From Panopea generosa (lineage: Eukaryota; Mollusca; Bivalvia; Adapedonta; Hiatellidae): a stretch of 64,000 nt of DNA. The stretch spans positions 92,331,829-92,395,828 of the forward strand of contig CM055897.1 of the NCBI GenBank assembly GCA_029582155.1, read 5' to 3'. The notes under the pieces are model-generated. The model made no database searches. It was not told where the DNA came from and saw only the letters and a program-made list of their open reading frames with translations. The stretch's first letter is position 1; every line of letters begins with the position of its first letter. This document shows, one piece after another, positions 14,619 to 61,299 of this stretch. The translations under genes were made by a program, and so were the position numbers.

Positions 14619-14724
14619 CGCTGCATTACCATTATATCTGTAATATAAAACTTAATCACTGCTGTAGCAACGTTATGTTTTCACTGTTTACACTCAACAC
14701 AGTATTAAAGTTATCAAATCTGCA

Positions 14725-19978: not shown

Positions 19979-20265
19979 GGCCCGATTAGCTCAGTCAGTT
20001 ACGTGTCTAACTATCAATCCAGGTGTCTCGAGTTCGAATCCCCACCCGGCGACAGTCTCTGTGATGACTGACATACAACATTGTGTCTCAATATCATTTG
20101 TCTCTCACTGCTGATTCGAGTGGAAAAATTATCAGTTACTTGCGGTTGCTGGGTGTGCTCGAGTACTGGTTAACTTTTGCAGGAAACAGTGGTTAGGTTA
20201 ACTGAACATCTGTACAGTAAACCCTCGATGGCAAGAAAATGATGCTAAATATTTAGTCAACCATT
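19979..20265 (+). mobile_element. SINE family A, copy 1
   Basis: The tRNA-like head is ggcccgattagctcagtcag then gttcgaatcccca (A and B boxes). The body contains catacaacattgtgtctca, tcactgctgattcgagtgg and ggttaggttaactgaac, and the tail is cctcgatggcaagaaaatga. It is clearly homologous to the copies at 42182 and 44255. This copy has an insertion in the anticodon-to-B-box part (gtgtctcgag). Confidence 0.85.
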
Positions 20266-21690: not shown

Positions 21691-22045
21691 TCCATTTTAT
21701 TATTCTTGCTAGTACTTTTGCCGGTGATTATAATTGCACGTTTCTATATCTGCTGTTGTGTATAAATCAATTATGTTTTAAACCGGAAGTGCAGTTATGA
21801 CGTCACGCAGGTATCCAATATGGCGACTTCCACCACAAAGTCGATGTGCGAAAATGACCGTTACAAAACGAGTTGATATATCTTTATGGACTCGAATTTA
21901 GGAATAATAATACTATTAATAGAAAGCTGAACTCATAGCTATTCACATTATCCTGTTTTATACACAGGGTTGCGTTCCCCTTTAAGTCTCAATGATTATT
22001 ACCTACAACTTATTTATTTTACTTCGATTATGCAATTAGATATAA

Positions 22046-22225
22046 CAACTTACACAAATCACGCTCGGAGTCTGGTTAGAACCAGTGCTAAACGTGTGCG
22101 GAAAGGTTTCTTGCTCAAGGACACCACACATAGTCGTTTGGGACGGGAGACGATCCTTCGATCCTGGGTTCGATGCCGGACCACTTGACCACACGCTCCA
22201 CACGCTCCACACAACAAACCTACAT
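22046..22225 (-). mobile_element. SINE family B, reverse copy
   Basis: On the minus strand: a degenerate tRNA-like head with gtggtcaagtggtccgg and gaacccaggatcgaagg, then tttgagcaag-type tcttgagcaagaaacc, tagcactggttctaacc, gagcgtgatttgtgtaagttg. Same order as the copies at 25562 and 47085. Confidence 0.7.
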
Positions 22226-25561: not shown

Positions 25562-25740
25562 ACGCCACGTGATCTAGCGGTAAAGCTCCGAACCCGTGAT
25601 CGGAGGATCGTGGGTATTTCAATCCTTCGCATTGAGCAAGACACTTTTTCCACATGTGCTTAGTATTGGTTATAACAAGGAAGACTACGAGCGTGATTTG
25701 TCTAAGTCGTAAGAACTTGTTTCAAATAAATAAGCTCAAA
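25562..25740 (+). mobile_element. SINE family B, forward copy
   Basis: Head cacgtgatctagcggtaaag, gatcggaggatcgtgggt and tttcaatcc, then cattgagcaagacac, gtgcttagtattggtt, gaagactacgagcgtgattt and gtctaagtcgtaagaacttg. It ends in aataaataagc. Several box positions have decayed. Confidence 0.7.
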
Positions 25741-29785: not shown

Positions 29786-32700
29786 ATAGATAAATAGATA
29801 AATAGATAGATAGATAGATATATGAATCGGTTTAATAAAATTAGGGAAAATATGTTTCTTAATTATTTTAATAAAATAATAGAAAATAGTTTCAGATTAA
29901 TCGTAATGAATAGAATTTAAATGATTAAATACAATGTAGTAACTAAAAAGAGAAAATTGGTTGGAGTGGAATTGACAATGCTAATTGAGTGATAATGACC
30001 AATGATAAAACCAATACAGAAGTAGAATTAAGACGACTTATCGACATAACAAGCACATGATTGGACAATATTGGTGGCTATTCAGGTGGAATACTAAGTA
30101 ACGGGTCTACAAAGGAAAAGAAGCCGGGAGCTATTCGTTTATATAAGTTCTACTAAAGTAAACAGCATTATTGTATTTTAAGAGACAATAACTATATTGT
30201 ATTTTTAAGGGACAGCCAGCTATATTGTATATTAAGGGCCAATCAGCTATATTGTTCTTTAAGGGCCAATCAGCAATATTGTATTTTAAGGGCCAATCAG
30301 CAATATTTATTTTAAGGGACAATCAGTTATATTGTATTTTAAGGGACAATAAGCTATATTGTATTTTGAGAGACAATCAGCAATATTGTATTTTAAGGGA
30401 TACTTAGCAATATTGTATTTTAAGGGACAATCAGCTATATTGTATTGTAAGGGACAATCAGCAATAATTATTTTAAGGAACAATCAGCAATATTGTATTT
30501 TAAGGGACAATCAGCAATATTTACTTTAAGGGACAATCAGTTATATTGTATTTTAAAGTACAATCAGCTATATTGTTTTTTCAGGGACAATCATAAAGTG
30601 TAATTTAAGAGACAATCAGCAATATTATATTTTAAGGGACAATCAGCAATATTGTACTTTAAGGGACAATCAGCAATATTGTATTTTAAGGGACAATCAG
30701 CAATATTGTATTTTAAGGGACAATCAGCAATATTGTATTTTAAGGAACAGTCAGCAATATTGTACTTTAAGGGACAATCAGCAATATTGTATTTTAAGAG
30801 ACAATCAGCAATATTGTACTTTAAGGAACAATCAGCAATATTGTACTTGAAGGGACAATCAGCTTTATTGTATTTTAAGGAACAATCAGCAATATTGTAC
30901 TATAAGGGACAATCAGCAATATTGTATTTTAAGGGACAATCAGCAATATTGTATTTAAGGGACAATCAGCTTTATTGTATTTTAAGGAACAATCAGCAAT
31001 TATATTGTACTATAAGGGACAATCAGCAATATTGTATTTTAAGGGACAATCAGCAATATTGTATTTTAAGGAACAATCAGCAATATTGTATTTTAAGGGA
31101 AAATCATCAATATTTATTTTATGGGACAATCAGCTATATTGTATTTTAAGGGACAATCAGCAATATTTATTTTAAGGGACAATCAGCAATATTGTATTTT
31201 AAGGGACAATCAGCTATATTGTATTTTAAGGGACAATCAGCAATATTGTACTATAAGGGACAATCAGCAATATTGTATTTTAAGGGACAATCAGCAATAT
31301 TGTATTTTAAGGAACAATCAGCAATATTGTACTTTAAGGGACAATCATCAATATTAATTTTATGGGACAATCAGCTATATTGTATTTTAAGGGACAATCA
31401 GCAATATTTATTTTAAGGGACAATCAGCAATATTGTATTTTAAGAGAAAATCAGCAATATTAGCTATTTTGTATTTTAAGGGACAATCAGCATTATTTAT
31501 TTTAATAGACAATCAGCAACAATTTGTTTTAAGAGACAATCAGCAATATTGTATTTTAAGGAACAATCAGCAATATTGTATTTTAAGGGACAATCAGCTT
31601 TATTGTATTTTAAGGAACAATCAGCAATATTGTATTTTAAGGGACAATCAGCTTTATTGTATTTTAAGGAACAATCAGCAATATTGTACTATAAGGACAA
31701 TCAGCAATATTGTATTTTAAGGGACAATCAGCAATATTGTATTTTAAGGAACAATCAGCAATATTGTATTTTAAGGGACAATCATCAATATTTATTTTAT
31801 GGGACAATCAGCTATATTGTATTTTAAGGGACAATCAGCAATATTTATTTTAAGGGACAATCAGCTATATTGTATTTTAAGGGACACTCAGCTATATTGT
31901 ATTTTAAGGGACAATCAGCAATATTGTATTTTAAAAGAAAATCAGCAATATTAGCTATTTTGTATTTTAAGGGACAATCAGCATTATTTATTTTAATAGA
32001 CAATCAGCAACAATTTGTTTTAAGTGACAATCAGCTATATTGTATTTTACAATAGTGTGTTTTTTTTGTGAACAGTTATTGTTAATCAGAACATAACAGA
32101 TCTGATCTGGTGTGATAAATGATATTTTTAAAACAATTTCTTATTTGCGCTTAGTAGGTGGATGGAATTGCCCCCGAATGCTAGTTTACAAAAATCACAG
32201 TTGATTTCTATTCCTTTAAATACAATTGTAGATGTATGTATCACGTTGTGATGCACTATGGTACGATTAACACTTATAACTGATCATAGTTATGTTTGTG
32301 ATATGTTTTAACAAACATAAATAAATAAGTCCACTGAAGGACCATAATTGTACATGTTTTCAAATATTTAGTCTCTTATAATTCTAAAATGAATGGCATA
32401 ATATATTTTCTTTCGTGCGTATGTACATTGATTTTATTGATGTTTGTATATTATGATGAGACGGAAATAAATAATAAATAATAAATAAATAAATTTTAAG
32501 GAACAATCAGAAATATTGTATTTTAAGCGAAGTCAAATGCTACATGATTTTAATGAGTTGTTTTTTAGTGCAAATTTTCAATCAAACTAGTTTGTATCCC
32601 TTTAATGTGTAGAGCGCGTGATCTAGTGGTAGAGCACCAAACCCACGATTGGAGGGTGATTTGTCAACTTGTTTAAACTCTCCCTTTACTACTCGTTTCT

Positions 32701-40415: not shown

Positions 40416-43400
40416 CTGCACAGAAAAAAAAGAAACGAGTAGATATATTCGTTTAATTTTGAATTCGAGTTTAAGTGGAAACATCGTCCTTCCGCAAAAC
40501 TAATAACTAATAAACTTTCTCACTTAAAGGTTTTATACATTTCCCGAGATGTGATGTCCAAATACCAAGTCCACCCCAACAGTTTAAAATAGAACATGCA
40601 TAAATCAGATTTATAAATTTGCCAACCGGTTGACAAAACAACTGAACTAAGGATGCAATGAATGGGTCACATTGTGGCCAGTTATTATTCTGCAATATAT
40701 GTAAAGCACATATGTGTCATAAATCATGGTTATCATTATGCATTATTAGAATGACACACATGTGCCCTAACAGTTTCATACATTACATTGTCAGAAGCAA
40801 TACACACATGTGCCGTGATATCAATAACATATATTACAAATATTAAAAAAATACAGAAAAAAAAATGTGAAGGGTTCGATAAAATATTCCATTAAGGAAG
40901 AAGAACTATAAATTATAGTTCTTCCTCCCCAATATTACAGATTGAGGGGTGAATGCGAAAAAGGTCTAAGTGCATATAAATAAAGAAGATCTAGACATTT
41001 TTTGCTTTCGCCCATCTAGATGGAGAAGAAGAGATAACGGTTGCACCCTGCTAGGTGTAACCAATGAACTGAGAATTATTCAATGTATTGCATGTAAAGA
41101 AAATGATGGCAATTGAGTGAAAATGGTAACATAAAAAGAAATTTGATTAATTTAAAAAAAAATAACCGGAATTATAGTAATATTATGAGGAAAGCATATC
41201 AAACATTTTATTATAATTTTCTAAACAGCCTATATAGACAAGTATAATTCAATTGGCGAACAACTCATAAAATAGGGAGAGAAAAGTAACGAAATTGTCG
41301 AACTGAAAAATACCTGCTTCGAACTAACACATTTCTGTTTCTTATTTTAGCAAAGTATAAAATATAGTATTTTGATATTTATTACGAAGTTCGAAGTATC
41401 GGACTAGTTTATGTGTGCAATAAAACTTGAGAATGCCAAAATATTTGACATACTTAATTTATCGGTAACCACTCTCTCCTCCAGAAAGGTTGACGCTGGA
41501 ATTTGAGTACGGTTATATTAGTGAGAATAAAATGTGTCTTGTAAGAGGACTGAGCCGTGTATTTGTTATGTATTAAATTTGACAACTAGTTTGCATTCAC
41601 CTCTTTTCTTTATATGGAACCTGATACCATCATATCGTGAAAGGTTTGGCTTTGGTGTGGGTCCCTGTCTCATTGTCAATCTCCTGAACATATCTGTAGT
41701 GTGATGCATGCCTGTCGTGTTCGTCTGTTGACCTGACTGTTTCTGCTTCTGCTCCTCTATATCCCGGCCACTACAAGTAAATAGTTGATCAGTCACTGGC
41801 CGGCCACAATCATTGTTGTTTTCCTTACAGTTTTGATTATATTTTGAAAATTGATTGTTTTAAAAATTATACATGTATATATCTTTTAATACAAATTTAT
41901 GAATATTTATGAAAATATGTAATATCCTGCGGCAACAGAATCGTTCGTGTGATTCTGACCCGCTATTTGAAATTAGATAGATATAACTTAGCTACTATAA
42001 CAATTAAATAAAACATAATTGATAATTTACTCAATGTTGTCATTTCCGGTAATTTAGAATCATAAAATACAACTTAAGCCTGTGTTTACCCCTCTTGAAC
42101 AGATTATGCTATTTAAGGTAGTTCGCGGCGTTCCTGTCGGATATTTTTACATCTGGCGTAAATTATCAAAAATCTGTACACGGGCCCGATTAGTTAAGTC
42201 AGTTAATCGTCTGGCTATCAATCCAGAGGTCGTGAGTTCGAATCCCCGCCCGGCCAGTCTCCATGATGGTTGATATACGACATAGTGTCTCATTATCATT
42301 CGTCTCTCACCGCTGTTTCAAGTGGGAAAGTTATCAGTTATTGCGACGATGGGGTGTGCTCGAGTACTGGTTAACCTTTCAGGATCCCAGGAAACTGTGG
42401 TTAGGTTAACTGAACGTCTGTTAGCCCTCGATAGCAAAAAGATAACGCTAAATATTCAACAATCTGTACACATATACTATGAAGTATCAGCTTTTGTATT
42501 AGCTTTGTTTTTTTTTACTATAGTACCGCAGTTTCTCGTTAACAGCTCCCCCTGGTGGTACGTGATTTTTCTGACGATTTCACCGTTATTTTCTTTATCA
42601 AATGGTTAATATTAATTGAAAACTGTTTTTAATAACATATATAAATTACTTATCTTATTACTTGTGATAATATCATAACTTTAATACAGATAAAGAGCAA
42701 TTTATGTTACATTTACATCTAATCATTACGCCGGGGTTGATTAAAACGCGTGTTTAAAAACAGCACATTTTAAACATTCACGCTTGAATGCGCAAAAATG
42801 CTCTGGTACAAGTTCTTGAACGTTTATATTTATGTACGTGTTACTATACACAAATAATATACTTCGCCAGTGCATCTAGCAATACATATATGCAATAGTT
42901 TAAATCTTACTCACACAGTTCTACTCAATTTACATATGTTTTGTTCAATATGATGCTATGACTAAATGTCGGCGTTCACGAATAGGTCTTCAGCAAACTG
43001 TTTTGCTTTATTCCATCAATATAAATTTGGTTTAGTATTCAGTTTATAATAGATTTCGGTCTATACATGTAAACTACACACAATAGAATTTTGGAATTGT
43101 TCTGCTTTTCGATTCTACCGACGCTATTTTAACCGCTCTGCGATTCTGCAAACACAAATGACTCTATGTAATGTGGAGCACAGCAATATCAAATAGGTGT
43201 TATCAATAATTGTTCATACCGTTCATGAAACAACAAACTGATAAGAAAACTGCTTTAATATTTTATATCTACAATATATAGCAATCACAATTGACGGTTT
43301 ATTCCATTTATATACAGTTTTGATCTAATATTCAGTTTATAATAAATGTCGGCGTACAAAACCGTCTACACGCAATTGTCTGCGCTTCTATTTTTAACCG

Positions 43401-46400
43401 CTCTGCGATTCTGTAACAAGACTCATTCCTGTAAACGCTACCTCTGTGTTATTTAGATCACACTAATTTTAACTAGTTGTTGCTAATATATGCATCTATA
43501 TTTTCTAAAAACAACAAATGTATGGGATACTACCGTCATATGGGTTACGGACGCGTGGTAGCGCGCATTTGTAGTGTATATAGTTGTGATATTTTACAGT
43601 AGGTTTCTCAGTCTGTCTGCAGTATTTTATATAAAGAAAATTGTTTATTCTTGTGTTGTTGTCATTTTGTTGTTTTCTTTTATTTTTGTCCTCTGATGAA
43701 GGCGTAAAGCCGAAAGCTGGCTAAGGATATCTCGTTATAAGTTTTAGCACTGTAAAATGGTAATTCTCTCTACTGTATTCACTATTTCTACCATTTATGT
43801 ATCCCTCGTGGATCTGGTGCTCCTGAAAGGTGTTTTGTTAGACGTATGATTCTCCCTATATATATATATATATATGCTCGCTGTTAACGAGAAACTGGGT
43901 ACTTTATAAAAAGCAAAGCTAAAACGGAAGCTGAGACGTCATATATCAATTGTACAGCTTTTTGATAAAGCACGCCAGATGTCCGAAAGGAATGCGGCGA
44001 ACCTTAATTTGCATTATTGCACTCTCTGTTTTCAATGGTTAGTTTTAGCCGATCTTCATCGATCAATAAAATATATCTTATAAAAGTTGTTTGTTATTAT
44101 TTGTGATTTATATAAATTATGGACTTTATTCAGTATTGACAGAAAATAGAATATTGCTCAAGCCGGTGTGGGGGGAATGAGACGGGTTGTATAGTCCATT
44201 GCCCGTCACGAACAGACTCATTGGATCAATCTTTTGTTTTCCTTTTAGTACGCAGGGCCCGGTAAGCTCAGTCGGTTACGCGTCTGACCATCAATCCAGG
44301 GGTCGTGAGTTCGAATCCCCACCCGGCAACAGTCTCCGTGATGATTGATATATGACATTGTGTTTCATTATCATTCGTCTTTCACCGCTGATCCAAATGG
44401 AAAAGTTATCAATTACTTGCGTAGATGGGGTTTGCTTGAACACTTGTTAACCTTTCAGGATCCCAGGAAACAGTGCCTTGGTTAACTGATCATCTGTTAG
44501 CCCTCGATGGCATAAAAAATGACGTTAAATATTCAATAAACAAACAATCCTTTAAGCACGGACCAGATCCGTCTTGAATCCTAGAAATCACAAATAATAA
44601 CACAATTGATCAAAGCACCCAGCACGTTAGACTACTGTTACAAAAGCAATAATGTCTATTTAAAGCAAAGAACGCATCCAAAAACGAGAAGGTTTGATTT
44701 TGTCGAGTCTGTTCGTGAGGGGTTGGTGAAAAAGGCGAATTAAAAATAAATATAAAAATACGTTTCATCGTCGATTCCCAAATTAAGTTGTTTGATTGTA
44801 TGCTCGACTTTGGTATCAATGTTTCCCTTCTTTGAAAACGTATATTCGTGCATGAACATGTCTAATATGAACGCTGTTACAATGCTGAAACAAAAAACAT
44901 AATATACATGTTAAATATAAAACCAATATTAATAAACAACCAATATTATATTAATAATTAATAGAGATATTTAAGTAAAATATAGAACCAATATCAATAT
45001 AATTAAATGATTATCGCTGTCAATTACTGTACATGTACCAATATTAACTACTATATCTATAAAATATTAAACTCCTATCAACGGAAAAATATATAAACAT
45101 TCAATTAAACGTCAAAAAGTAATATAAATATATATAATAGCAATAAGAGAAAAACAACTGATATTCATATGAAGAATTAAAGAGTAGACAGAATTAACCT
45201 ATCTATAGCTAGTAGCAAATATATTAAAACTCACTTAAATTTACACGTTATTTAAATAAACTTTGAATTTGGATATCAACAACGGATGCATAACTGACTT
45301 TAAGATCGTTTTTACTATCTAATTACTGATCTGTGGTACTATATAAATAACGATACCCACAACTTCTATTTAATAGATAGTTCGTATATTCAAGTTAATT
45401 TCCACTTTTTTTCGGACACAAAACTATAATAATAAACGGGAAAAAACGTAAGTCTATACCAGGTAATAAATGCCTTATTCAAATGGAACACGAGTCTCAA
45501 TTTGAAACTATTTAAAAACTATACTGCCTGGTTGAACATTTATGAAACATATCATAGGTGATTCATAAATTATTACTCATGTGTGTTTGTCGTAAATAAG
45601 CTTTTTTTATTTGATCAATAGGGTAGTCGATACTTTAAGATTATTTTAAATTGTTTTAATTGCGTAACAACTTTTTTCTTGCCAGGCTTTTATTAATTTT
45701 TCATCTGAAACCCCCTTTGCAGCATTACACATAGTCTGTGATAGTGTGTTGTAATTGATAGATGTTATTTATAATGTACATGTATCTTATAACAGCAATA
45801 CCACTGTTGTTATTGTGGTATTCATATGTAAGTTTACATGACGTGGACGTCATACACGTACAGGTGCGTTAAGTTATTACAAATAACAAAACAAAAAGCC
45901 GGTTTTCAATACTTACTTCATGACGACGACTGCAACACATAAATGGAACATCATAAAGTAAATTCTGGCTGCCTTACTGGTCACGAGCACGAATCCTTCA
46001 CACATAATTAAAGTGAGTTAAGGAAAATTGATAAATCTGTGACTCAGTGATTATCGTGTTTATTTATCAAGAGACACCAAAGTGAACCGTAAATGATGAA
46101 GCAACAAGTGGTACGGTTTATAACGAGCGAAAAACTAATGTTTCCTTACCAACACTTTTTCTTATTAGTTTAATATGATTGAAAGCAGTGAAATTTCTTG
46201 TTAAAAGTTTCACTATTTTAAACAGCAAAATTTCTAAACAAATTCTATTGTGAAATCTCTATACTTTATCAAAACATAAAATAATATGAATTCCCGTTAC
46301 TGATACAAAGCCATTGCTATGGTAAATATTTTAGAACGTTAATCCCAAGTACGTTCCCGTTACATTCATACTATAATGTGGTATTCGGTAGGAATGAAAC

Positions 46401-49400
46401 GACACATGTCATAGTGTGTTATATACAGAATACGTAACTTTAAGTAAAAGCAGTAGCTTAGTTAATTTGGTTCCTTCATTACTTCCCTTAGGCCTATGAT
46501 CTAAATATAACTAACACAGTGCACGGATTTCACACTCATTATAATGACTTTTACATTGTTGAACTACGCCACATTAATTTTGTGTGTGTTAATAACCATA
46601 ACTGTGGGAAATACTGATTATACCTGCAGGTAATTATATGTTATAGTTTCCAATAAACCGTAACATATTTTTTTGTATAATTGAAATCATTGAAATTGTT
46701 TAATATAATAAGTAAATAAGATATTTGTAAATGTTATATTGAACTGCAATTGTACAAGCCACCATCACCGAACACGTCGTATATTGACTGTTTTATTATA
46801 TGTATCATGATAGTATTTATTGTTTCTGATGTTTGTTTCAGAATGCATGGTAGATATATATATATAGAATGATTGGCGATATATAAAACTATTGAAAAAT
46901 CTACACGTGTTCATGTATCTAAATACCCAATCAAATTGTCCTACCGAATCCAGCGCATCTAGGGTTAGGGGAGAAGGCGGTGACACGCACACATTGGTAC
47001 ATACCACGATTCAGACCTACATGTATACTTATAAACACTCATTGTCACTTTAATATCAATTACCAATTACATAATATGCGATATAAGAAAGCGCTTGGTC
47101 ATGTGGAAGAGCATCGGACCCATGATAGGAGGGTCGTTGGTTCGATCCTCCCCTACGGCTATGTGCGTGTGTGTGTGTGTGTAGGGGGGGGGGGGTCTTG
47201 AGCAAGATACTTTATCAAGATATGCTTAGTACTGGTTCTACCCAGGAAGACCTCGAGCATGATTTGTCTAAGTTGCAATAACTTGTTTTACAAACGAAGG
47301 AAAATAAATAAGTTTTAATCATATACCACCTTAAAACAACCGTGCCCCACTTTCACTAAAACGGCTCCAAAGTATTATATTTCGCTATCAATTAAAATTA
47401 AGATAGGAGTATGGTGAAAAACGTATTAATTGCATGTTTGTGTTTAAAATGAGTACAAAACAGAGCACAAACTCATCCACACACTTACATGTTTAACTGT
47501 TCTTTGTTTTTGACAGCATCTTATTCGTGTCGGCTTCATTGGGAGAACCTATACTAATGGAAATACAGCAAGATGCCGTATCAACGTCAACATTGAATGG
47601 GTATACTTGATGGAATCGTTAAAGTCTACGAGTAATATCTCGTCCTTCCTCTAAAACTGCAGCATGACATTATAATGAGATGGCTGATATTGATATTGAC
47701 TAGGTAAAATAAAATCGTGAAAAGCCACGTGTTGATATAAACCCTGTGCTACCCATTATTCGAGTTCAATTTACATGTACCAATTACATAAATACAAAAA
47801 TAATTCGTAGTATTTTATTCGACGAAGAAAATGTTACAACGTGCAGTAAGGTGCGTTTTAAGGTAAACAGAACTGTCGTTTGGGCATGCGCGTTAGCACA
47901 AATCTAGACTGAGTCTCTATATTTTAATCCAGAAAAACAGAACACGACTTAATGGCCATACCGCCCAGCCAGCCAAGATAGATTTATCTGAATAACGAGT
48001 TTCCAGTATTTCAAACATATCTGATGACGATTACTGTGTTTTATTCAGTTTAAAACTCATTTTTTACTTCAATTGAGAAACAAGTTCTCACAACTTGGAC
48101 AAATTACGCTCAAAGTCCTATATAGAACAAGCACTAAGCATATGAGGATAACGTTTCTTGCCCAAAGGCACCAAATAAAGCCGTGGCGAAGGATCGAACC
48201 CACCAACCCTACCCCATTTGGACCCGATGCTCTACCACTTGGGCCAAGCACTCCAAGTTTACATAAAGGATATCATGCCAGTTGTTCACTATAAGTAATG
48301 ATGCTAGCAGCACGAATGCATTGATGAGGTCATTAAAGTTTGTTTTACAATATCGGTTACTGGAAAACAGACTATTGTTCAAGGCGTTGTTGTTACAGTT
48401 CAACTGGTCAACCGTTGGCGTTGGATAATTGTAACCTAGAAACTGAAACTTGTCCGCAAAAATCTCCATTCCGACAATTGCAAATGCATAAAAGACAATC
48501 TGAAAATTAGTTTAACATAATTTAGAAAATAAAGATAACATGAAAATCAAAATTAAATAGTTATTAACGATCTTTTATTTTGAATCAATATTAAATCATA
48601 TTTTTTCAGTATGGTACTGCATTGGATACAGTGTTGACCGTCTACGCCAGATATCGCGGCGTCAATCCCTGTCCCGACCAGATGACTTCTCAAACACACC
48701 ACTCAGTATTGGTCAGGAGCGTAATTTGTGTTTGAGCTGATATACATAAGTATTAACTTACTTTCGAACACTTTCATTTTTTGCAATTATACTCAATAAT
48801 GTATTTGCCAAATAGTTAAGTAGATTAAATGAAATCAACTGAAGACTTGTTCAGATGTTATGACATACATCGATTCATTACTGTAGAGGAAGAACGAACA
48901 AACACTGGTAATAGTTTCCCAATAAAAATATATTTTTGCAATTTAATATCTCAAAATCTTTTGATTATTATTTATATAACTGAAAGTGAAAAAAAATACT
49001 CACAAATAGAATTCCACAATACGTGAAGATGGAGAAAGAGACATTTAAAACAGCATCGAAAATAATTCGAAATCTGAAAAAAACAACACATTATGTAATT
49101 AAATATTTATCAATCATATCATTCTTAGACAATTCAGCAAAATATGTTCAGTGACGTAATGGCACTTACCATGTAGAACAAACTAAGTAATCTTAAATCA
49201 TTAGAGACACTATGGGTTAAACGTAGAACTGTTGGTCATATTAATGGTGAAAACTGTGGTCAAGTTAACCTTTAACTCTGCGTGATGTTTTCAGCTTTAA
49301 ACATACGATTAAGACATCTTTCTTATTGTCTTTATTAATTCGATAAGCTTAAAGACATGTATCTTCCTTTTGTATCGTGCATATGTAAACATTTCATGAT

Positions 49401-52400
49401 AAAATGCCAACTCTTCATATAATCCAATGTAGTATTCACCTTTGTATATCGTGATAAAATTTTCTAGCCTGCGGTATAGAACTATTTGTAGTTTCACCAA
49501 GAGGTGAAACAAAGTCATATCTCCGTGCGGTCGAATATAGTTGCTGTGCTCACTTTAACATTATTATACAGTGCCATTGATTAAACAGTTTATCTCACCT
49601 GTCGAACTCCACCAGACATCTTAAAACTCGAAAAATACGAAATACATTCAATACGCTCATCGCTTCGGCATTAATTGTATCTAAAATAGAAATTGTATAT
49701 TATAAACCATACAGAATATAATGTACATAACAAACATAACTTATTGTACATACCGCACAAAACATAGTGTACATGCCGCACAAAACATAGTGTACATACC
49801 GCACACAACATAGTGTACATACCGAACATAGCATATGGCAGATACCATATCAAACATATTGCACATATAGTACAAAACATATTATACATACCGAACAAAA
49901 CATATTGTACACACAATACAAAACATACTGTATACACAATACAAAACATAGTACACATATCGCACCAAACATATTATACACACAATACAAAACACACATA
50001 CTGCACAAAACATATTGTACACACAGTACAAAACATATTGTACACACAATACGAAACATAGTACACAAACTGCATAAAACATATTGTACACACAATACAA
50101 AACATATTGTACATACAATACAAAACATAATACCCATACCGCAACAAAACATACTGTACATAAAAACAAAACATAGTACACATGCTGCACAATACATAGT
50201 GTACACACAATACAAAACATAGTACACATACCGCACAAAACACTTTGTACACACAATACAAAACATATTACACATATTGTACAAAACATCATGTACACAC
50301 AATACAAAACATATTACACATACTGCACAAAACATATTGTTCACACAATACAAAACATATTACACATATCGCACAAAACATATTGTATACACAATACAAA
50401 GCATATTACACATATCGCACAAAATATATTGTACACACAATACAAAACATCTTGTACACACAATACAAAACATAATGTACACATAATACAAAACATATTA
50501 CACATACCGCACAAAACATATTGCACACACAATAAAAAACATATTACACATGCCGTAGATAGCATATTGTTGTAGTAGAACACAGTTTATGGCTTTGGAA
50601 ATATAGTAGAACCATGTATATATTTTTAAGATTCATGGTGGAACAAGGGTATAGAGAATATAAAAGAGCAGGACACATGGTTAGGTAAATATAACAGAAC
50701 AAGTTGTATGTTTAAATATAGTAGAACAATGAACATGGTTTATTGAAAACTCACGTTATGTGGTTTATAAAAAAAAGAACATATAGGCATATGACAGGCT
50801 AACCACGTTCTATATAGGGATTGTAGTTAATATTGAAATTAACAATTGAACGCATATTGTACATTGTTTTACCGTATCTATAGTAACAACACATACCGGT
50901 AAAACCAACATTGTCTTGAAGCAGTAAAATAAAATAAAAAATACTATTATGATCGGCAGGGCCAGTATTGTAACAACCATACAGAGTATTAAGTAAACTT
51001 TATCCTTGATCACTTCAAATAGAACATAAAAAGCTAAAGGATTACCAACGCTGATGATACAATTATTAAGAATGGTGTGTATAGTTTATGATATAGAAAT
51101 GATATTTGAAAATAAAGTATGACACCTGCTGTGATGATTTCTGACTTTTTCATCTCAGTGAGCACCAGCATGACAAGCGATACAAGGGTAATAATCACGT
51201 CCGTGCTGTAAATGTAAACAACAATAGTTATGTGCAATACCACACAATAATGTCGCGAATCTGTATTACACTAGATATAATATAAACAGCAATAGTTATG
51301 TGCAATATCATACAATAATGTCGCGAGTCTGTATCACACTAGACATAATGTCATGAATCTTTATTACACAAGACATAATGTCATAAGTTTTTATTACACT
51401 GTACTTAATGTTCAAAAGGATACAAGGATACAACTGATCTGCAAGTAAGAACAACACTCGCTTGCCAATAATACGTTCTGAAGGCAGATAGAAGTTTGTG
51501 GTTCGCTGTTACCGTAATGTTACTCTTAAAATATGCAGATAACGTAGTCTGCCCGTATTGTAGTAAAACTCTCAGGGTTATAGTGAGTACATACCTATTG
51601 TATTGTTTGAATATGTACCCTCTATGTGCTGGTAACCTTATGTATTTGTAGATACAACGACTATTTCTACTAAACTATTGCTATATATAAATTAAGATTC
51701 ATGAAGTGAAGCTAACATGCGCAATATAAGCATACATACATAATGTGGAGGACGTATACTTCCTATAAAATTTAACTACCTCTAATCTGTTTTCTGTTCT
51801 GTGATTAACACCATGATACAATGGATGTCACAGTCAACAGTGAAAATCCCTGCAACTGTATCATTTTACATAGTTGACATTTTTAATCTTGGATGTTTTA
51901 TAAGTTCGTGTTTTATATCCAGCTTTTATATTCTAATGTAATACATTTTAAATATGTTACTTGATCTCAGTCGAAATGTTGCTGTTATTACAATGCCCGA
52001 ACATTATTTATATAAACTACAAAATGGCATAATTACCAGCCTTGTCTGTACACTTGTATTATATAAACTACAAAATGGCATAATAAACAGCCTTGTCTGT
52101 ACACTTTGTATTAGTTGGCATAATTAACAGCCTTGTCTGTACACTTTGTATTAGTTGGCATAATTAACAGCCTTGTCTGTACACTTTGTATTAGTTGGCA
52201 TAATTAACAGCTTTGTCTGTACATTTTGTATTAGTTGGCATAATTAACAGCCTTGTCTGTACACTTTGTATTAGTTGGCATAATTAACAGCCTTGTCTGT
52301 ACACTTTGTATTAGTTGGCATAATAAACAGCCTTGTCTGTACACTTTGTATTAGTTGGCATAATTAACAGCCTTGTCTGTACACTTTGTATTAGTTGGCA

Positions 52401-55400
52401 TAATTAACAGCCTTGTCTGTACACTTTGTATTAGTTGGCATAATAAACAGCCTTGTCTGTACACTTTGTATTAGTTTGCATAATTAACAGCATTGTCTGT
52501 ACACTTTGTATTAGTTGGCATAATTAACAGTCTTGTCTGTACACTCTGTATTAGTTGCTGACGTAGTGTTAGATACGAAATACTACACACTTTGGAAGTT
52601 AGTACACATGTATTAAGACATTATCAATAAATAGCATATATTCATTTAATGTATTATTATTTGGTAACTGCTTGACAGACACTAATGTTAAATTACAATT
52701 CATTTGTTAAATATATATATAAAGCAGCATTATTTCTGTACGCACATAACTTTTCCCTAAGGCTACTATAATTGAAAACATTTTGGTGCATACAAACTGC
52801 CAATGTTTCAGAGAAGAATCTATTCAAAATATGTAAAATGTAAAACTATACGATACCACCTTTCATTTTAACGCTGGCATTCACTCTATTACGCTATATG
52901 AGAATATTTAGTTAATAAACCTGCTCAGTCAATATGACCATAATATACATTTTGTGAAATTTGTTGGAAACAACAATTTTAGTTACTTACATGTGCTGAA
53001 ATTTGAGGAAGTAACGTTTGGTACCAAATGCGTACCATTTCAGAATAATTTCCAGAAAATACAAGGCGAAGAACAGCCAATCAGCGACCTCCACGTTGAG
53101 ACATATCATAATGACGTTGACGATCACGACGCCATCATACAACAGACTAAAGTAACTGTTGAAACGAAACAAACCTTTAACATTACTTTGAATAGAACAT
53201 TGTATGAGTAAGTATAGTAATACTTTATTATTTTAATGTTGTTGTTTTGCGTAGTTAGTAGGCTTGGCCAGTTAAAGAGGCTGGACTTATGACATCGTGT
53301 TAGTAAACGAGCATTTGTTTATTGTATCATACATTGGCGAATAAACAATTAGAACTTCATTTTAGTACGTCCTATAACTGAGAAATTAAAAGATCAACAT
53401 TTTATTTTTTTGCGTTCTTTCAGGTTATGTTTTCGTATGCCGTTTTAAAGAACAAAATGTGAGACTACATGTCGGGTTGCAGTTTATTATTTGGTCAATA
53501 TAAACTGAACTAGGAAAGATATTTTCTGTTATATAGCATTTTATAAATATTCAGTTGCATGGTTTATATATAAAAACTTCAAAACTATTGACGATATAAA
53601 TGACGTTTCTTTAAGTGTTCACAGACAACATAACACATATGCGTTCATATATTCATAGAAATTAAACATTTTATTTGGAAGTATATAGACATATTCCAAA
53701 ACTTACATAGTTTGGACAGCAGTGATGAGCTTCGTACTAAATTTGGACATATAGATGGCTGGACAGTAGATTTCCATGAAGGTTTTCCTCTCGGATACTT
53801 CCGACAAAGGCACGTTCAACAAGTCAGATACACTTAAAAACTGCTGGCGACCTATGTGAAACAAGAAGAATAAATACCGGGGTTGATAGCATTGTTATAT
53901 ATGATAGGCATAAAAATGATAACATTATTTTTAATTTACCATAATTACAGTGTATATCAAGACACAAGTTTGATGACACTCTCGACGGTGGGGCTAGAGT
54001 AGTTTGGGTGCATCATAAACCTGGTTTTGACGCCCAAATTATGTTTGCTATTGGCTTCCAAAGTAGCGACAATTTTAATAGTATGTGAATTCTTGCTCGG
54101 TTTTAATGTTTTACTGCAATAATGAAATCCATGTTCATTGTCTAGATGTTGAGGACCACAGTGAAGTGTATTAACGTTGTTACCATTATTGAATAGATCA
54201 TAATTATTATCATTTATTATTTTGTACATTCAGTCCGTGTATACACATATAAGGGATGTTTGATTATAAGACTACGGCATAGGACAACTGGAGACTTTAT
54301 ACATGAAAACATTATGTAACACAATTAACACTTATCCTTGTGCGATGATAATGATGATATTTTTTTTATCGTCGCCACCGGTTTCCCGCCTCCAGTAGAG
54401 TATTAATAATTTTAAATCTTTGGATGATAGTTCAGAGATACAGAATTTTGTAGTGTCCCTGGTTCTTTTACATGCCCGATGTGAGGCACTGATACGAAAA
54501 ACTGAGAAGTATTTTAGTAGGAGGAGCGGTGGATCGAACCTGCAACCCCTGGGTTATCAGTCCAAGGCTTTAACCACTGGACCACTAATCCGCTCTTATC
54601 ATTTTGTATTCAATACTCAGATATTTATAATTACATCAAACGTTGCCACCAAAAATACTCGATATAAGAGTGACTTCCCTTTGCTGTGGAATAGTTTTGT
54701 TTTTCACAACAGCAAACACAGGGCAAATGTAGCAACTTTGTATGTGTCAAATATTTGAGCTTGTCCTCAACACTGTAATTTAACATCAATGTAAACTGAC
54801 TTTTAGTGAGATTTTTTTTTATGGCGGGAACTCTGACACGTGCTAGACGAAACGTTTTAATTACAGCAAAATGCAAAGTTCGCAAATTTTGTTTTAATTA
54901 AAATAACTTTAATCAAGTATGTAAAATGATAGATGTATATGTCATATGATCCTTTTCATATGTTTCAAAATTATTTAAACCAAGTTATGCTAAACTGTTA
55001 GAACAATATGCGACATTTCTAATTTATTTACATGTCAATGTTCGTAAGCTACTACGACTATTCTTTTTAATTATATTTATATTTCAGCAATATTTTGAAT
55101 GCATGTAATCATCACCATACCTTTTTCTTAAAATGATGCAATGCCATGTTTTACCATGTTGCTACTTAGCTGAGATTGGGCGGATGCAAAGTGCAAAGTG
55201 TATTTATAATATTACACATTTATAGTCTCTTATACTTCTGATAGAATGACATGGTTTATGTGGTAATGTTATGTTAAACTGTAAATGTTATATGTTTATA
55301 CTATGATGAGACTTTAATAAAAGATATATACTCTATTCGATTTAAGTCGATAGAGTATTTGCTGGTCACGTCAAAAGTGGCGGATTCGACCAAATGGTCT

Positions 55401-55807
55401 CTCTAGAAAACACAACCCAGTACTGGCTACATCCGGTAGCAGGTTCGAGAACAAATCACATAAGCTTTGAGTTATTTTGCCATTGGGTCGAGCATGGGAT
55501 AGAACCTGCGAACTCAATCGCTAGCGGTCAATACACCATCAAAAATCCGCTTGAATTTACTTGTTTTGATACCTCAGATTAATTAAGATTTATTTTCAGT
55601 CTTACTGATGTGTCCGGATTTATCAGTGTCCAAAACCATCATTAGAAGGTCGATCTGGAATTTCGTTTTTTCAGGATGTGCCAGTTTAATCAAGCGTGAC
55701 CAGGTTTTGTACGTTACCATCTCCTTCCCGCCCATGTTGATTTTGATCTTCTCGAACGCTTGATGAAGAATCTTGGTCTTCATGCGAGCCGAGTGTTTAA
55801 TTTGGTT
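40318..55807 (-). CDS. Two-pore cation channel, 3' 11 exons (TPC-A), partial
   Basis: Exons join complement(55606..55807, 53707..53851, 52991..53155, 51126..51205, 49599..49680, 49004..49073, 48274..48499, 45917..46007, 44762..44884, 41601..41770, 40318..40415) give 1,452 bp, 483 residues plus stop, with every phase agreeing. In order: domain I-II linker with an EF-hand-like loop (DTDKSGHISRQQ), IIS1 and IIS2 (DGVVIVNVIMICLN; DWLFFALYFLEIILKWYAFG), IIS3 (DVIITLVSLVMLVLT), IIS4 (VFRIFRVLR), IIS5 through IVFYAFAIVGMEIF, pore helix and filter (YCKTNFNDL...LIVNNWH), IIS6 and the cytosolic tail. VNNW is the domain II filter typical of animal TPC1/2/3. Domain I is missing: it must lie beyond the right edge or in exons I could not find. 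Three evenly spaced Arg in IIS4 suggest a voltage-sensitive type. The product should be an endolysosomal Na+/Ca2+ channel. Confidence 0.85.
41601..41770 (-). CDS. TPC-A exon 10 of those seen (cytosolic tail)
   Basis: Acceptor actatttacttgtag, donor AAAAGAG|gtgaat. Encodes GRDIEEQKQKQSGQQTNTTG, a Gln/Thr-rich spacer, then RRLTMRQGPTPKPNLSRYDG and IRFHIKKR. Phase 2 in, phase 1 out, matching both neighbours. The spacer is not conserved; the support is phase, splice sites and position. Confidence 0.7.
42182..42469 (+). mobile_element. SINE family A, copy 2
   Basis: gggcccgattagttaagtca, gtgagttcgaatccccgccc, catagtgtctcattatcatt, tcgagtactggttaaccttt, ggttaggttaactgaacg, ctcgatagcaaaaagataac. 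In the intron before the 41770 exon, antisense to TPC-A. Confidence 0.87.
42955..43455. repeat. Degenerate tandem duplication (about 310 bp)
   Basis: The sequence attcagtttataata, tttcggtctataca, then aaccgctctgcgattctg occurs at about 43039-43150 and again at about 43340-43415, with tttattccat leading each copy. A weaker third copy starts before 42990. Confidence 0.65.
43856..43876. repeat. (TA)n microsatellite
   Basis: About ten TA dinucleotides in a TPC-A intron. Confidence 0.95.
44255..44550 (+). mobile_element. SINE family A, copy 3 (best head)
   Basis: gggcccggtaagctcagtcg, gttacgcgtctgaccatcaa and gtgagttcgaatccccaccc form good A and B boxes. The body matches copies 1 and 2, with tail ctcgatggcataaaaaatga, cgttaaatattcaataaaca. 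The three copies differ by roughly 10-20% by eye, so the family is not young. Confidence 0.88.
44762..44884 (-). CDS. TPC-A exon 9 of those seen (end of IIS6)
   Basis: Acceptor ttttttgtttcag. Completes Asn, then IVTAFILDMFMHEYTFSKKG, NIDTKVEHTIKQLNLGIDDE and two bases of Thr before an AAAC|gtattt donor. NIVTAFILD is the cytosolic end of IIS6 (compare N-V-AFILE-F in the family). Reading through the donor would reach a stop after eight codons, an alternative short end. Confidence 0.8.
45917..46007 (-). CDS. TPC-A exon 8 of those seen (IIS6), after the U12 intron
   Basis: 91 bp encoding (V)MCEGFVLVTSKAARIYFMMF, then HLCVAVVVMK with a GAA|gtaagt donor. The exon start at 46007 is chosen because it follows the U12 branch site TTCCTTAAC by about 10 nt, keeps frame with phase 1, and gives VNNWHVMCEGF, the expected spacing after the filter. 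The alternative AG 12 bp downstream also keeps frame but deletes four residues. Confidence 0.75.
47085..47300 (+). mobile_element. SINE family B, best copy
   Basis: gcgcttggtcatgtggaaga, gcatcggacccatgatagga, gggtcgttggttcgatcctc make a good tRNA-like head; then a GT and poly(G) insertion, cttgagcaagatactt, gcttagtactggttctaccc, aggaagacctcgagcatgat, ttgtctaagttgcaataact. In the U12 intron of TPC-A, antisense to the gene. Confidence 0.8.
48085..48252 (-). mobile_element. SINE family B, reverse copy beside a splice site
   Basis: On the minus strand gtgcttggcccaagtggtag, agcatcgggtccaaatgggg, ttggtgggttcgatccttcg, then tttgggcaagaaacg, gcttagtgcttgttctata and ttgtccaagttgtgagaact. Same orientation as TPC-A and starting about 20 nt inside the U12 intron. 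It lacks the simple-repeat insertion seen in the 47085 copy. Confidence 0.8.
48274..48499 (-). CDS. TPC-A exon 7 of those seen (IIS5 end, pore, filter)
   Basis: Acceptor ctaattttcag, phase 0 in, phase 1 out. Encodes IVFYAFAIVGMEIFADKFQF, a luminal turret with Asn-rich sequence and two sequons (NNS, and NCN is not one), Cys residues, then RYCKTNFNDLINAFVLLASL and LIVNNWH. NFND..N.FV.L...L.VNNW is the diagnostic pore helix and filter of domain II in animal TPCs. Confidence 0.88.
49004..49073 (-). CDS. TPC-A exon 6 of those seen (S4-S5 linker, IIS5)
   Basis: Acceptor tgtttttttcag, donor ATTT|gtgagt. Completes Arg, then FRIIFDAVLNVSFSIFTYCG ILF. It runs directly into IVFYAFAIVGMEIF, together forming IIS5. 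Confidence 0.82.
49599..49680 (-). CDS. TPC-A exon 5 of those seen (IIS4 voltage sensor)
   Basis: Acceptor tctattttag, donor GACAG|gtgaga. Encodes TINAEAMSVLNVFRIFRVLR CLVEFD. Three Arg at every third position (FRIFRVLR) form a voltage-sensor helix. TPC2 in mammals lacks a key Arg here and is voltage-insensitive, whereas TPC1 and TPC3 keep them. Confidence 0.84.
49690..50580. repeat. 23-bp minisatellite (about 38 units)
   Basis: Unit acaaaacatattgtacacacaat with an alternating variant ending in acacatatcgc; the pair gives a 46-bp higher-order unit. It begins only about 10-40 bp upstream of the IIS4 exon acceptor, in the intron between IIS3 and IIS4. Confidence 0.95.
51126..51205 (-). CDS. 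TPC-A exon 4 of those seen (IIS3)
   Basis: Acceptor gtttacatttacag, donor GCAG|gtgtca. Encodes TDVIITLVSLVMLVLTEMKK SEIITA. The Asp in S3 is the conserved acidic residue of voltage-sensor domains. Confidence 0.83.
51230..51400. repeat. Small degenerate duplication (cataatgtcgcgaatctgta)
   Basis: The phrase acaatagttatgtgcaatac followed by acaataatgtcgcgaatctg occurs twice (51220 and 51288), then decays into ataatgtcatgaatcttta and ataatgtcataagttttta. Confidence 0.75.
52023..52556. repeat. 40-bp minisatellite (about 13 units)
   Basis: Unit ttggcataattaacagcctt followed by gtctgtacactttgtattag. The first two units differ (ttatataaactacaaaatgg). Low divergence between units indicates recent expansion. 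In the intron between IIS2 and IIS3. Confidence 0.97.
52991..53155 (-). CDS. TPC-A exon 3 of those seen (IIS1-IIS2)
   Basis: Acceptor gtttcgtttcaacag, donor CACAT|gtaagt. Encodes YFSLLYDGVVIVNVIMICLN, a short loop VEVAD, WLFFALYFLEIILKWYAFGT and KRYFLKFQH. ALYFLEIILK is the typical S2 with the conserved Glu. Confidence 0.86.
53707..53851 (-). CDS. TPC-A exon 2 of those seen (linker to IIS1)
   Basis: Acceptor ttgtttcacatag, donor ACTAT|gtaagt. Encodes RQQFLSVSDLLNVPLSEVSE and RKTFMEIYCPAIYMSKFSTK LITAVQT, which completes the EF-hand-like helix begun in the previous exon and leads into domain II. Confidence 0.82.
54515..54600 (-). mobile_element. tRNA-like SINE head
   Basis: On the minus strand gagcggattagtggtccagt ggttaaagcc, then aggggttgcaggttcgatcc accgctcc: good A and B boxes and a closing gagcgg/ccgctc stem. 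It may be a tRNA pseudogene or the head of a further SINE family. In a TPC-A intron. Confidence 0.6.
55606..55807 (-). CDS. TPC-A first exon seen (I-II linker, EF-hand-like)
   Basis: Acceptor ctgtatattgcag, donor CATCA|gtaaga, phase 0 in and 1 out. Encodes NQIKHSARMKTKILHQAFEK, IKINMGGKEMVTYKTWSRLI, KLAHPEKTKFQIDLLMMVLD and TDKSGHI. With the next exon the loop DTDKSGHISRQQ has Asp at 1 and 3, Ser at 5, Gly at 6, Ile at 8, but Gln where Glu is needed at 12, so Ca2+ binding is doubtful. Confidence 0.83.
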
Positions 55808-56369: not shown

Positions 56370-59300
56370 GAAATCGGTAAGGAACATATTTTTATATACC
56401 AACATTCCTCACGCAGGTTAGTTACAGATTCTTAAATACCAACATCTCTCACGCACGTAAGCTACATATTCTTAAATACCAACATCCCCCACACAGGTAA
56501 GGTACAGATTCTTAGAAACCAACATTCCTCACGTAGGTAAAGTACAGATTCTTAAATACCAACATTTCTCACGCACGTAAGCTACATATTCTTAAATACC
56601 AACATCCCCCCACAGGTAAGGTACAGATTCTTAGATACCAACATTCCTCACGTAGGTAAGGTACATATTCTTAGATACCAACATTCCTCACGCAGGTAAA
56701 GTACAGATTCTTAAATACCAACATCTCTCACGCACGTAAGCTACATATTCTTAAATACCAACATCCCCCCACAGGTAAGGTACAGATTCTTAGATACCAA
56801 CATTCCTCACGTAGGTAAGGTACATATTCTTAGATACCAACATTCCTCACGCAGGTAAGGTACAGATTCGTCAATACCAACACCCCTCAGGCAGTTACAT
56901 ATTCTGAAATACCAACATTCCTCAGGCAGGTAAGGTACAGATTCTTAAATACCAACATCCCTCAGGCAGGTAAGGTACAGATTCTTAAATATCAACATCC
57001 CTCACGCAAGTAAGGTACAGATTCTTAAATACCAATAGGTAAGGTACATTTTCTTAAATACCAATATCCCTCACGAATGTAAGGTACATATTCTTTAATA
57101 CCAACATCCCTCACGAAGGTAAGGTACATATTCTTTAAAACCATGAGGTAAGGTACATATTCTTTAATACCAACATCCCTCACGCCGGTAAGGTACATAT
57201 TCTTAAATACCAACATCCCTCATGCAGGTAAGGTACATATTCTTAAATACCAACATCCCTCACGCATGTAAGGTACATATTCTTTAATACCAACATCCCT
57301 CACGCGGGTAAGGTACAGATTCTTAGATACCAATAGGAAAGGTACATATTCTTAAATACCAACATCCCTCACGCAGGTAAGGTACATATTCTTTAATACC
57401 AATATCCCTCACGCAGGTAAGGGACATATTCTTAAATACCAACATCCCTAACGCAGGAAAGGTACAGATTCTTAAATACCAACATCCCTCACGCAGGTAG
57501 GGTACAGATTCTTAAAAACCAACATTCCTCACGCATGTAAGGTACATATTATTTAATACCAACATCCCTCACGCAGGTAAGGTACAGATTCTTAAATACC
57601 AATAGGTAAGGTACATATTCTTAAATACCTACATCCCTCACGCAGGTAAGGTACATATTCTTTAATACCAACAATCCTCACGCAGGTAAGGTACATATTC
57701 TTTCAGACCAATAGGTAAGGTACATATTCTTAAATACCGACATCCCTCACGCAGTTAAGGGACAGATTCTAAAATACCTACTAGGTAAGGTACATATTTT
57801 TAAATACCTACATCCCTCACGCATGTAAGGTACATATTCTTTAATACCATCATCCCTCACGCAAGTAAGGTACATATTCTTTAATACCAATAGGTAAGGT
57901 ACTTATTCTTAAATACCAACATCCCTCACGCAGGTAAGGTACATATTCTTAAATACCAACATCCCTCACGAAGGTTAGGTACATATTCTTTATTACTCAA
58001 CATTCTTCAGGCAAGTAAGGGACAGATTCTTAAATACCGACATCCCTCACGCAGGTAAGGTACAGATTCTTTAATACCAACATCGCTCACGCAGGTAAGG
58101 TACAGATTCTTAAATACCAATAGGTAAGGTACATATTCTTAAATACCTACATCCTTCACGCAGGTAAGGTACATAATCTTTAATACCAACAATCCTCACG
58201 CAGGTAAGGTACATATTCTTTAAGACCAATAGGTAAGGTACATATTCTTAAATACCGACATCCCTCACGCAGTTAAGGGACAGATTCTAAAATACCTACT
58301 AGGTAAGGTACATATTTTTAAATACCAACATCCCTCACGCATGTAAGGTACATATTCTTTAATACCAACATCCCTCACGCAGGTAAGGTACATATTCTTT
58401 AATACCAATAGGTAAGGTACATATTCTTAAATACCAACATCCCTCACGCAGGTAAGGTACATATTCTTAAATACCAACATCCCTCACGAAGGTTAGGTAC
58501 ATATTCTTTAATACTCAACATTCCTCAGGCAGGTAAGGGACAGATTCTTAAATACCGACATCCCTCACGCAGGTAAGGTACATATTCTTTAATACCAATA
58601 GGTAAGGTACATATTCTTAAATACCAACATACCTCACGCAGGTAAGGTCCATATTCTTTAATACCAACATCCCTCACGCGGGTAAGGTACATATTCTTTA
58701 ATACTCAACATTCCTCAGGCAGGTGAGGGACATATTCTTAAATACCGACATCACGCAAGTAAAGTACATATTCTTTAATACCAACATCCCTCACGCAGGT
58801 AAGGTATATATTCTTGAATACCAACATCCCTCACGCAGGTAAGGTACATATTCTTTAATACCTACATACCTCACGCAGGTAAGGTACATATTCATTTATA
58901 CCAACATCCCTCACGCAGGTAAGGGACATACTCTTTAATACCAACATCCCTCACGCAGGTAAGGTACATATTCTTTGATACCAACATCCCTCACGCAGGT
59001 AAGGTACATATTCTTTAATACCTACATCCCTCACGCAGGTAAGGTACATATTCTTTTATACCAACATCCCTCACGCAGGTAAGGGACAGATTCTTAAATA
59101 CCAACATCCCTCACGCAGGTAAAGTACAGATTCTTAAATACCGACATCCCTCACGCAGGTAAGGTACAGATTCTTAAATACCCACATCCCTCACGCAGGT
59201 AAGGGACAGATTCTTAAATACCAACATTCCTCACGCATGTAAGGTACACATTCTTTAATACCAACATCCCTCACGCAGGTAAGGTACAGATTCTTAAAAA

Positions 59301-61085
59301 CCAATAGGTAAGCTACATATTCTTAAATACCAACATCCCTCACGCAGGTAAGGTACATATTCTTTAATACCAACATCCCTCACGCAGGTAAGGTACACAT
59401 TCTTTAATACTCAACATACCTCACGCAGGTAAGGGACATATTCTTAAATACCAACATCGCTCACGCAGGTAAGGTACATATTTTTATATACCGACATCAC
59501 TCACGCAGGTAAGGGACAGATTCTTAAATACCAACATCCCTCACGCAGGTAAGGTACATATTCTTAAATACCGACATCCCTCACGCAGGTAAGGTACATA
59601 TTTTTATATACCGACATCCCTCACGCAGGTAAGGTACATATTTTTATATACCTACATCCCTCATACAGGTAAGGTACATTTTCTTTAATACATACATCCC
59701 TCACGCAGGTAAGGTACAAACTCTTAAATACTAACATCCCTCACGCATGTAAGGTACATATTCTTTGATACCTACATCCCTCACGCAGCTAAGGTACATA
59801 TTCTTTAATACCATCATCCCTCACGCAGGTAAGGTACATATTCTTTAATACCAACACCCCCACGCAGGTAAGGTACATATTCTTTAATACTAACATCCCT
59901 CACGCAGGTAAGGTACATACTCTTTAATACCAACATCCCTCACGCAGGTAAGGTACATATTCTTTATTACCTACATCCCTCACGCAGGTAAGGTACATAT
60001 TCTTTAACACCAACACCACTCACGCAGGTAAGGTACATATTCTTTAATACTAACATCCCTCACGCAGATAAGTTACAGACTCTTAAATACCAACATCCCT
60101 CACGCAGGTAAGGTACATATTCTTTAATACCTACATCCCTCACGCAGGTAAGGTACATATTCTTTAATACCAACATCCCTCACGCAGGTAAGGTACATAT
60201 TCTTAAATACCAACATCCCTCACGCATGAAAGGTACATATTCTTTAATACCTACATCCCTCACGCAGATAAGGTACATATTCTTTAAAACCAACATCCCT
60301 CACGCATGTAAGGTACATATTCTTTAATACCAACATCCCTCACGCAGGTAAGGTACATATTCTTTAATACCTATATCCCTCACGCAGGTAAGGTACATAT
60401 TCTTTAATACCAACATTCCTCACGCAGGTAAGGTACAGACTCTTAAATACCAACATCCCTCACGCAGGTAAGGTACACATTGTTAAATACCAACATCCCT
60501 CACGAAGGTAAGGTACATATTGTTAAATACCGACATCCCTCACGCAGGTAAGGGACAGATTCTTATATACCAACAGTTCTCACGCAGGAAAGGTACATAT
60601 TCTTATATACCAACATTACTCACGCAGATAAGGTACATATTCTTATATACCAACAGTTCTCACGCAGGTAAGGTACATATTCTTATATACCAACAGTTCT
60701 CACGCAGGTAAGGTACATATTCTTAAATACCAATATTCCTCACGCAGGTAAGGTACATATTCTTAAATACCAACATTCCTCACGCAGGTATGGTACAGAT
60801 TCTTATATACCAACATTCCTCACGCAGGTAGGGTACATTTTCTTAAATACCAACATTCATTATGCAGGTAATGTACAGATTCATGTATACCAACAGTCCT
60901 CACGCAGGTAAGGTACAGATTCTTAAATACCAACATTCCTCACGCAGGTAATGTACATATTCTTATATACCAACATTCCTCACGCAGGTAAGGTACATAT
61001 TCTTAAATACCAACATTCCTCACGCAAGTAAGGTACATATTCTGATATACCAACATTCCTCACGCAGATAAGGTACAGATTTTTA
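56370..61085. repeat. 4.7-kb minisatellite of 40-bp units (about 117)
   Basis: Unit taataccaacatccctcacg followed by caggtaaggtacatattctt. Short units (ataggtaaggtacatattct, about 22 bp) occur between full ones in the left half. At 57580-57960 and 58100-58480 a block of about 520 bp is repeated. Each unit on the plus strand contains CAGGTAAGG, a strong 5' splice-site consensus, antisense to TPC-A. Confidence 0.97.
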
Positions 61086-61299
61086 AGAAGTGAGAACAGG
61101 AATCATCGACTTGAAACGGTCCAGTATCCAGTATAGAATTGGGGTACTTAAACCATAAGGGGTGCATCTAATCTCGCTCTGTCATTGGCCAGTCACATCA
61201 AAGGACAAGACAGTGTAACAAAAAGTACACCGGTCAGCTGTTCTCTTATGAAAGTTATAGAAACTTTAATATTAACATAGGTCAATATTTCTAAAGCCC

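Follow-up and report, generated by a model that had tools for sequence, protein, structure and literature searches.

A stretch of 64,000 nucleotides (nt) from the bivalve Panopea generosa (GenBank assembly GCA_029582155.1, contig CM055897.1, positions 92,331,829 to 92,395,828), here called the window, carries on its minus strand a gene whose best match identifies it as a TPC3-like two-pore-channel gene. The gene is cut one base past the VNNWH codons of its pore filter by 2266 nt (46008..48273, minus strand, phase 1) that, as a preliminary description of the window had proposed, are very probably a minor-class (U12-type) A-type spliceosomal intron with AT and AA as its terminal dinucleotides. 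Splice motifs, spacing, reading frame and protein homology all support this reading.

The gene model comprises nine minus-strand exons, runs from 55807 to 44761, is stop-free throughout and encodes 395 residues. Its first two exons encode the interdomain linker (55606..55807, EF-hand-like, and 53707..53851), and are followed by exons for the S1-S2 region (52991..53155), the S3 region (51126..51205), S4 (49599..49680, with VFRIFRVLRCLVEFDR) and, with segments named by our own reading, the S4-S5 linker together with the start of S5 (49004..49073). The next exon (48274..48499) extends from S5 to the filter of domain II (IVFYAFAIVGMEIF...IVNNWH G), and the exon after it (45917..46007) begins just past the filter and runs into S6 (V MCEGFVLVTSKAARIYFMMFHLCVAVVVM N), with a gtaagt donor at 45916. 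The remainder of S6 and the start of the C-terminal tail lie in 44740..44884, which is open up to a stop at 44742-44740 and represents a putative 3′ end. For seven of the model's eight introns GT-AG ends could be chosen, partly by construction because the junctions were picked by eye; for the eighth, 48273..46008, they could not.

Searches against solved structures returned two-pore channel 3 (6v1q) as the best match (E 2.1e-66, model residues 13-392 of 395), ahead of Cav channels and other two-pore channels among the best 60 of 70 matches. The model protein matches Pfam Ion_trans (E 5e-29), and the linker, which aligns to 6v1q from residue 313, has a Pfam EF-hand match below the cut-off of that family. 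The filter residues VNNW align with VNNW in 6c96, 6nq0 and 5tua and with VNQW in 6v1q. Across the junction, the residues WHVMCEGF stand against WHVLTSGF in 6v1q (TPC3), WYIIMEGV in 6c96 (TPC1), WQVFLDAY in 6nq0 (TPC2) and WQVWMESY in 5tua (TPC1), chains that presumably derive from zebrafish, mouse, human and a plant, respectively.

U12-type introns are recognized by a 5′ splice site of the form [AG]TATCCTT and a branch site of the form TTCCTTRAC. At the eighth intron, the upstream exon ends GTG AAC AAC TGG CAT G and the intron opens with ATATCCTTTATG at 48273, so that its first nine bases (48265..48273) read ATATCCTTT and match the A-type consensus. At the other end, TTTTCCTTAACTCACTTTAA terminates at 46008 and TTATGTGTGAAGG begins the next exon. 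Close to this 3′ end, the branch site TTCCTTAAC (46017..46025) is an exact copy of the U12 consensus, with candidate branch adenosines at 46019 and 46018. Both motifs are scarce: in the 128,000 bases of the two strands, ATATCCTTT occurs once, [AG]TATCCTT six times and TTCCTT[AG]AC three times. The branch site is the single exact one on the whole minus strand of the window, and a scan of about 220 nt around the 3′ end found no other site with up to two mismatches. The chance of finding both a donor no more than 30 nt from the exon end and a branch site no more than 40 nt from the following exon is about 1e-6 (5.6e-7 under a first-order Markov model, 1.3e-6 from observed rates), for zones whose sizes were picked post hoc. 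The sequence agrees with the preliminary description on the donor, the branch site and their coordinates. Its statement that the intron has no pyrimidine tract was loose, as pyrimidines make up 13 of the last 18 bases of the intron, yet the gap from branch site to exon is just 9 nt.

The inferred terminal AA (46008..46009) lies 10-11 nt from the candidate branch adenosines. An optimal branch-to-3′-end spacing of 11-13 nt has been given with an unstated counting convention, to be set beside the 10 or 11 nt counted here to the last intron base (PMC3584512; here and below, published sources are cited from the portions of their text available to us).

To place the junction by homology, we scored 1738 in-frame, stop-free pairs of donors (48300-48201) and exon starts (46060-45961) against the corresponding stretches of 6v1q, 6c96 and 6nq0. 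The AT-AA pair 48273/46007 ranked first with a summed score of 553, and the best pairs with other ends scored 530 (GT-AA), 518 (AT-AC), 498 (AT-AT), 497 (AT-AG), 496 (GT-AT), 495 (GT-AC), 476 (GT-AG) and 475 (GC-AG). When the U12 donor was joined to each of 17 AC, AG, AA or AT ends (exon starts 46016-45957), six of the 17 junctions were in frame and open, and the AA at 46009-46008 alone combined an open frame, a gapless alignment and the 10-11 nt branch spacing. It gives VNNWHVMCEGFVLVTS, as had been predicted. The prediction that the TCAC end (46013) would bring in a stop holds, but there is a second AC at 46018-46017, which is in frame and would add the residues TLI (WHVTLIMCEG). This AC is hardly usable with that branch site, because it forms the final two branch-site bases and lies 1-2 nt from the branch adenosine.

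The AG at 45997-45996, 12 nt further on, likewise keeps an open frame with the loss of four residues, as had been described. An AT-AG intron ending there would yield VNNWHGFVLVTS without VMCE and would imply transcripts that lack TTATGTGTGAAG between CATG and GATTC. Although U12-type AT-AG introns exist (PMC8280824, PMC4176328), the combination has been termed disfavoured (PMC3584512), this AG lies 22-23 nt from the branch adenosines and so past the optimum, and its use would delete four filter-adjacent residues where the aligned solved two-pore channels miss none. With a summed score of 497 against 553 as well, we consider an AT-AG intron very unlikely.

A more conventional possibility is a U2-type GT-AG splice, or a microexon within the 2.3 kb, in which case the U12 motifs would be coincidental. 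Genomic sequence alone leaves room for a microexon, a GT (TAT|gtaaac) lies 11 nt into the intron, and the GT-AA pair 48262/45996 is gapless with a score of 530. The preliminary description held that this GT (48262) fits no in-frame AG. This was incorrect, as an AG with an exon start at 45972 fits, but at a net loss of eight residues and a score of 465 against 553. Among the nine in-frame GT-AG pairs of the scanned zones, the best reaches 476 against 553. The 12 nt before the AG at 45997-45996 moreover look coding, since they encode VMCE, whose final glutamate matches that of 6c96 and 5tua. Given the chance of about one in a million that both U12 motifs would arise at these exon edges, we regard a U2-type splice or a microexon as highly improbable.

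Several points weigh against the AT-AA intron. The adjacent GA-TA junction reaches 552, one point below the 553 of the AT-AA pair, so that the protein sets the length of the junction and not its exact base, which is set by the splice motifs. AC is the preferred partner of a 5′ AT, and AT-AC introns make up 84% of A-type minor introns (PMC8280824); reduced splicing efficiency is frequent for non-canonical ends (PMC3584512). The locus may also be truncated or dead, as the model spans the linker and domain II alone, though all nine exons are stop-free.

A further alternative is an ordinary U12 AT-AC intron, with most copies reading TTTAC and the A at 46008 arising from a mistake in the assembly or from a minor allele. 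With C in place of A at this one base, the ends would be AT-AC at equal spacing. The window is free of N, however, and by eye no simple repeat lies at 46008. A random error or variant at this exact base also seems a priori less probable than a naturally occurring AT-AN end, because about 16% of A-type minor introns end other than in AC (from the 84% above, PMC8280824). An unrecognized AT-AC intron is thus improbable.

From the motifs, spacing, frame and gapless protein we infer that the AT-AA intron is spliced at these ends by the minor spliceosome. The donor ATATCCTTT would base-pair with U11 and the branch site TTCCTTAAC with U12, and the adenosine at 46019 or 46018 would attack the A that opens the intron. 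CATG would then be joined to TTATGTGTGAAGG in the second step through the AA, 10-11 nt past the branch point. An AA could serve as the 3′ end because the U12 machinery appears to place that end mostly by the branch site and, when an intron starts with A, to accept whatever base comes last. With a 5′ A it can join any 3′ nucleotide, AC being favoured, and the greater weight of the branch point eases the demands on the 3′ end (PMC4176328). The AA may, as had been suggested, have drifted from an earlier AC.

The intron also contains an inverted pair of repeats resembling a short interspersed nuclear element (SINE), one arm at 48049..48252 (minus strand, with tRNA-like boxes by eye only) and a second copy in opposite orientation at 47090..47318 (plus strand). 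In the predicted fold the arms share 169 base pairs. The duplex begins 21 nt beyond the intron's first base and has an energy of -214.5 kcal/mol, whereas 50 mononucleotide shuffles of one arm average -83.3 (standard deviation 6.0). Further stretches resembling this repeat occur in the window, among others at 25632-25723, 22004-22137 and 2159-2289.

A last alternative, for which this strong inverted repeat speaks, is editing of the terminal A to inosine in the pre-mRNA, by which the intron would count as AT-AG without any shift of its end. Adenosine-to-inosine conversion of non-canonical splice ends has been published, with GT-AA and AT-AG cases (PMC4176328). The inverted repeat, however, stops about 1.1 kb short of the 3′ end. 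To our knowledge, the published U12 splicing of AT-AN introns needs no editing, and we consider an edited end extremely unlikely.

If the intron is retained, the reading frame stops 21 residues past the filter histidine (VNNWH DILYVNLECLAQVVEHRVQMG stop). One could therefore imagine the AT-AA intron as a built-in switch, slow and often retained, in which a weak 3′ end and the duplex of about 200 bases hold splicing back and the retained form lacks the last pore segment. Minor-spliceosome activity would then set the dose of working channel. We think such a switch improbable, and a regulatory role of the inverted repeat is speculation.

Elsewhere in the window, two minus-strand segments at 14637..14331 (MADKNINKNG...) and 4510..4428 (DLRLAATLVSDAMEGRT...) look coding and, by eye only, resemble a channel N-terminus; they would lack the homologous junction. 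As candidates for a second two-pore-channel gene they were rejected, with no Pfam match to E 0.1 and, when joined, no match to a solved structure to E 1. Exon-like matches at 44386, 42311 and 20106 were likewise set aside because they look like a dispersed repeat, of which three apparent copies (44324..44386, 42255..42311 and 20047..20106, minus strand) mimic an exon of about 20 residues. An open frame at 41566..41859 (minus strand), which lies downstream of the channel domain, contains a PKPNLSRYDGIRFH stretch. This 97-residue frame (41859..41566) was discarded as a last channel exon, the one solved match listed being an unrelated palmitoyltransferase stretch (E 0.31).

Long tandem arrays with periods of 23-68 nt occupy 5201..14081, 27602..29333, 30163..32049, 49711..50570, 52076..52557 and 56376..61086, the largest array holding about 266 copies of a 32-nt unit. 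Long open frames that coincide with several of these arrays are probably spurious. A viral_contigs scan gave 25-residue matches at two loci (L001 and L002), the former in a 314-residue frame amid frames that look phage-like, and the L001 match was judged to be due to chance. Neither Rfam at gathering thresholds nor ARAGORN found a match within the window.

Non-canonical U12 3′ ends had been called rare in the preliminary description. They are uncommon, at about 3.8% of the orthologous minor introns of animals, yet a survey of more than 3000 eukaryotic genomes ranks AT-AA first among non-canonical minor-intron termini, in animals as in plants, and finds molluscs relatively enriched in minor introns (PMC10639083). 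AT-AN minor introns, AT-AA included, form a named, CENATAC-dependent subtype with fairly high basal retention (PMC8280824), and every human voltage-gated Na+ and Ca2+ alpha-subunit gene is said to carry a minor intron (PMC6865273). The term AT-AA does not occur in the available portions of PMC7367187, PMC4176328, PMC6717393 and PMC2831892. A main-text literature search, which misses supplementary tables and minor-intron databases, found no U12 intron in a two-pore-channel gene. Because both the AT-AA subtype and minor introns in channel genes have been published, there is no novelty in the intron class, the AA end or the type of host gene, and the AT-AA intron described here is a well-supported new example of an already known kind. 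With its perfect donor and branch site, it cleanly illustrates how weakly the U12 machinery seems to depend on the final base of an intron. Gene predictors that require GT-AG or AT-AC ends would be expected to lose or garble the pore of this protein.

Compared with known systems, the host gene resembles two-pore channel 3 (6v1q) in its linker, its six-segment domain II and a filter followed by WHV, and differs in that the model consists of the linker and domain II, domain I not having been located in the window. The intron resembles A-type AT-AN introns of the AT-AA subtype in its AT donor with the U12 consensus, its exact branch site and its close AA end, and differs from them in that it lies in a two-pore-channel gene and is known from genomic sequence alone. 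In 1999, Wu and Krainer reportedly described U12 introns in voltage-gated Na+ and Ca2+ channel alpha-subunit genes, which belong to a related ion-channel superfamily (Pfam Ion_trans). A minor intron right beside the pore filter of a two-pore channel provides a position that can be compared with those of the Na+ and Ca2+ channel minor introns, and raises the question of whether they share an ancestor.

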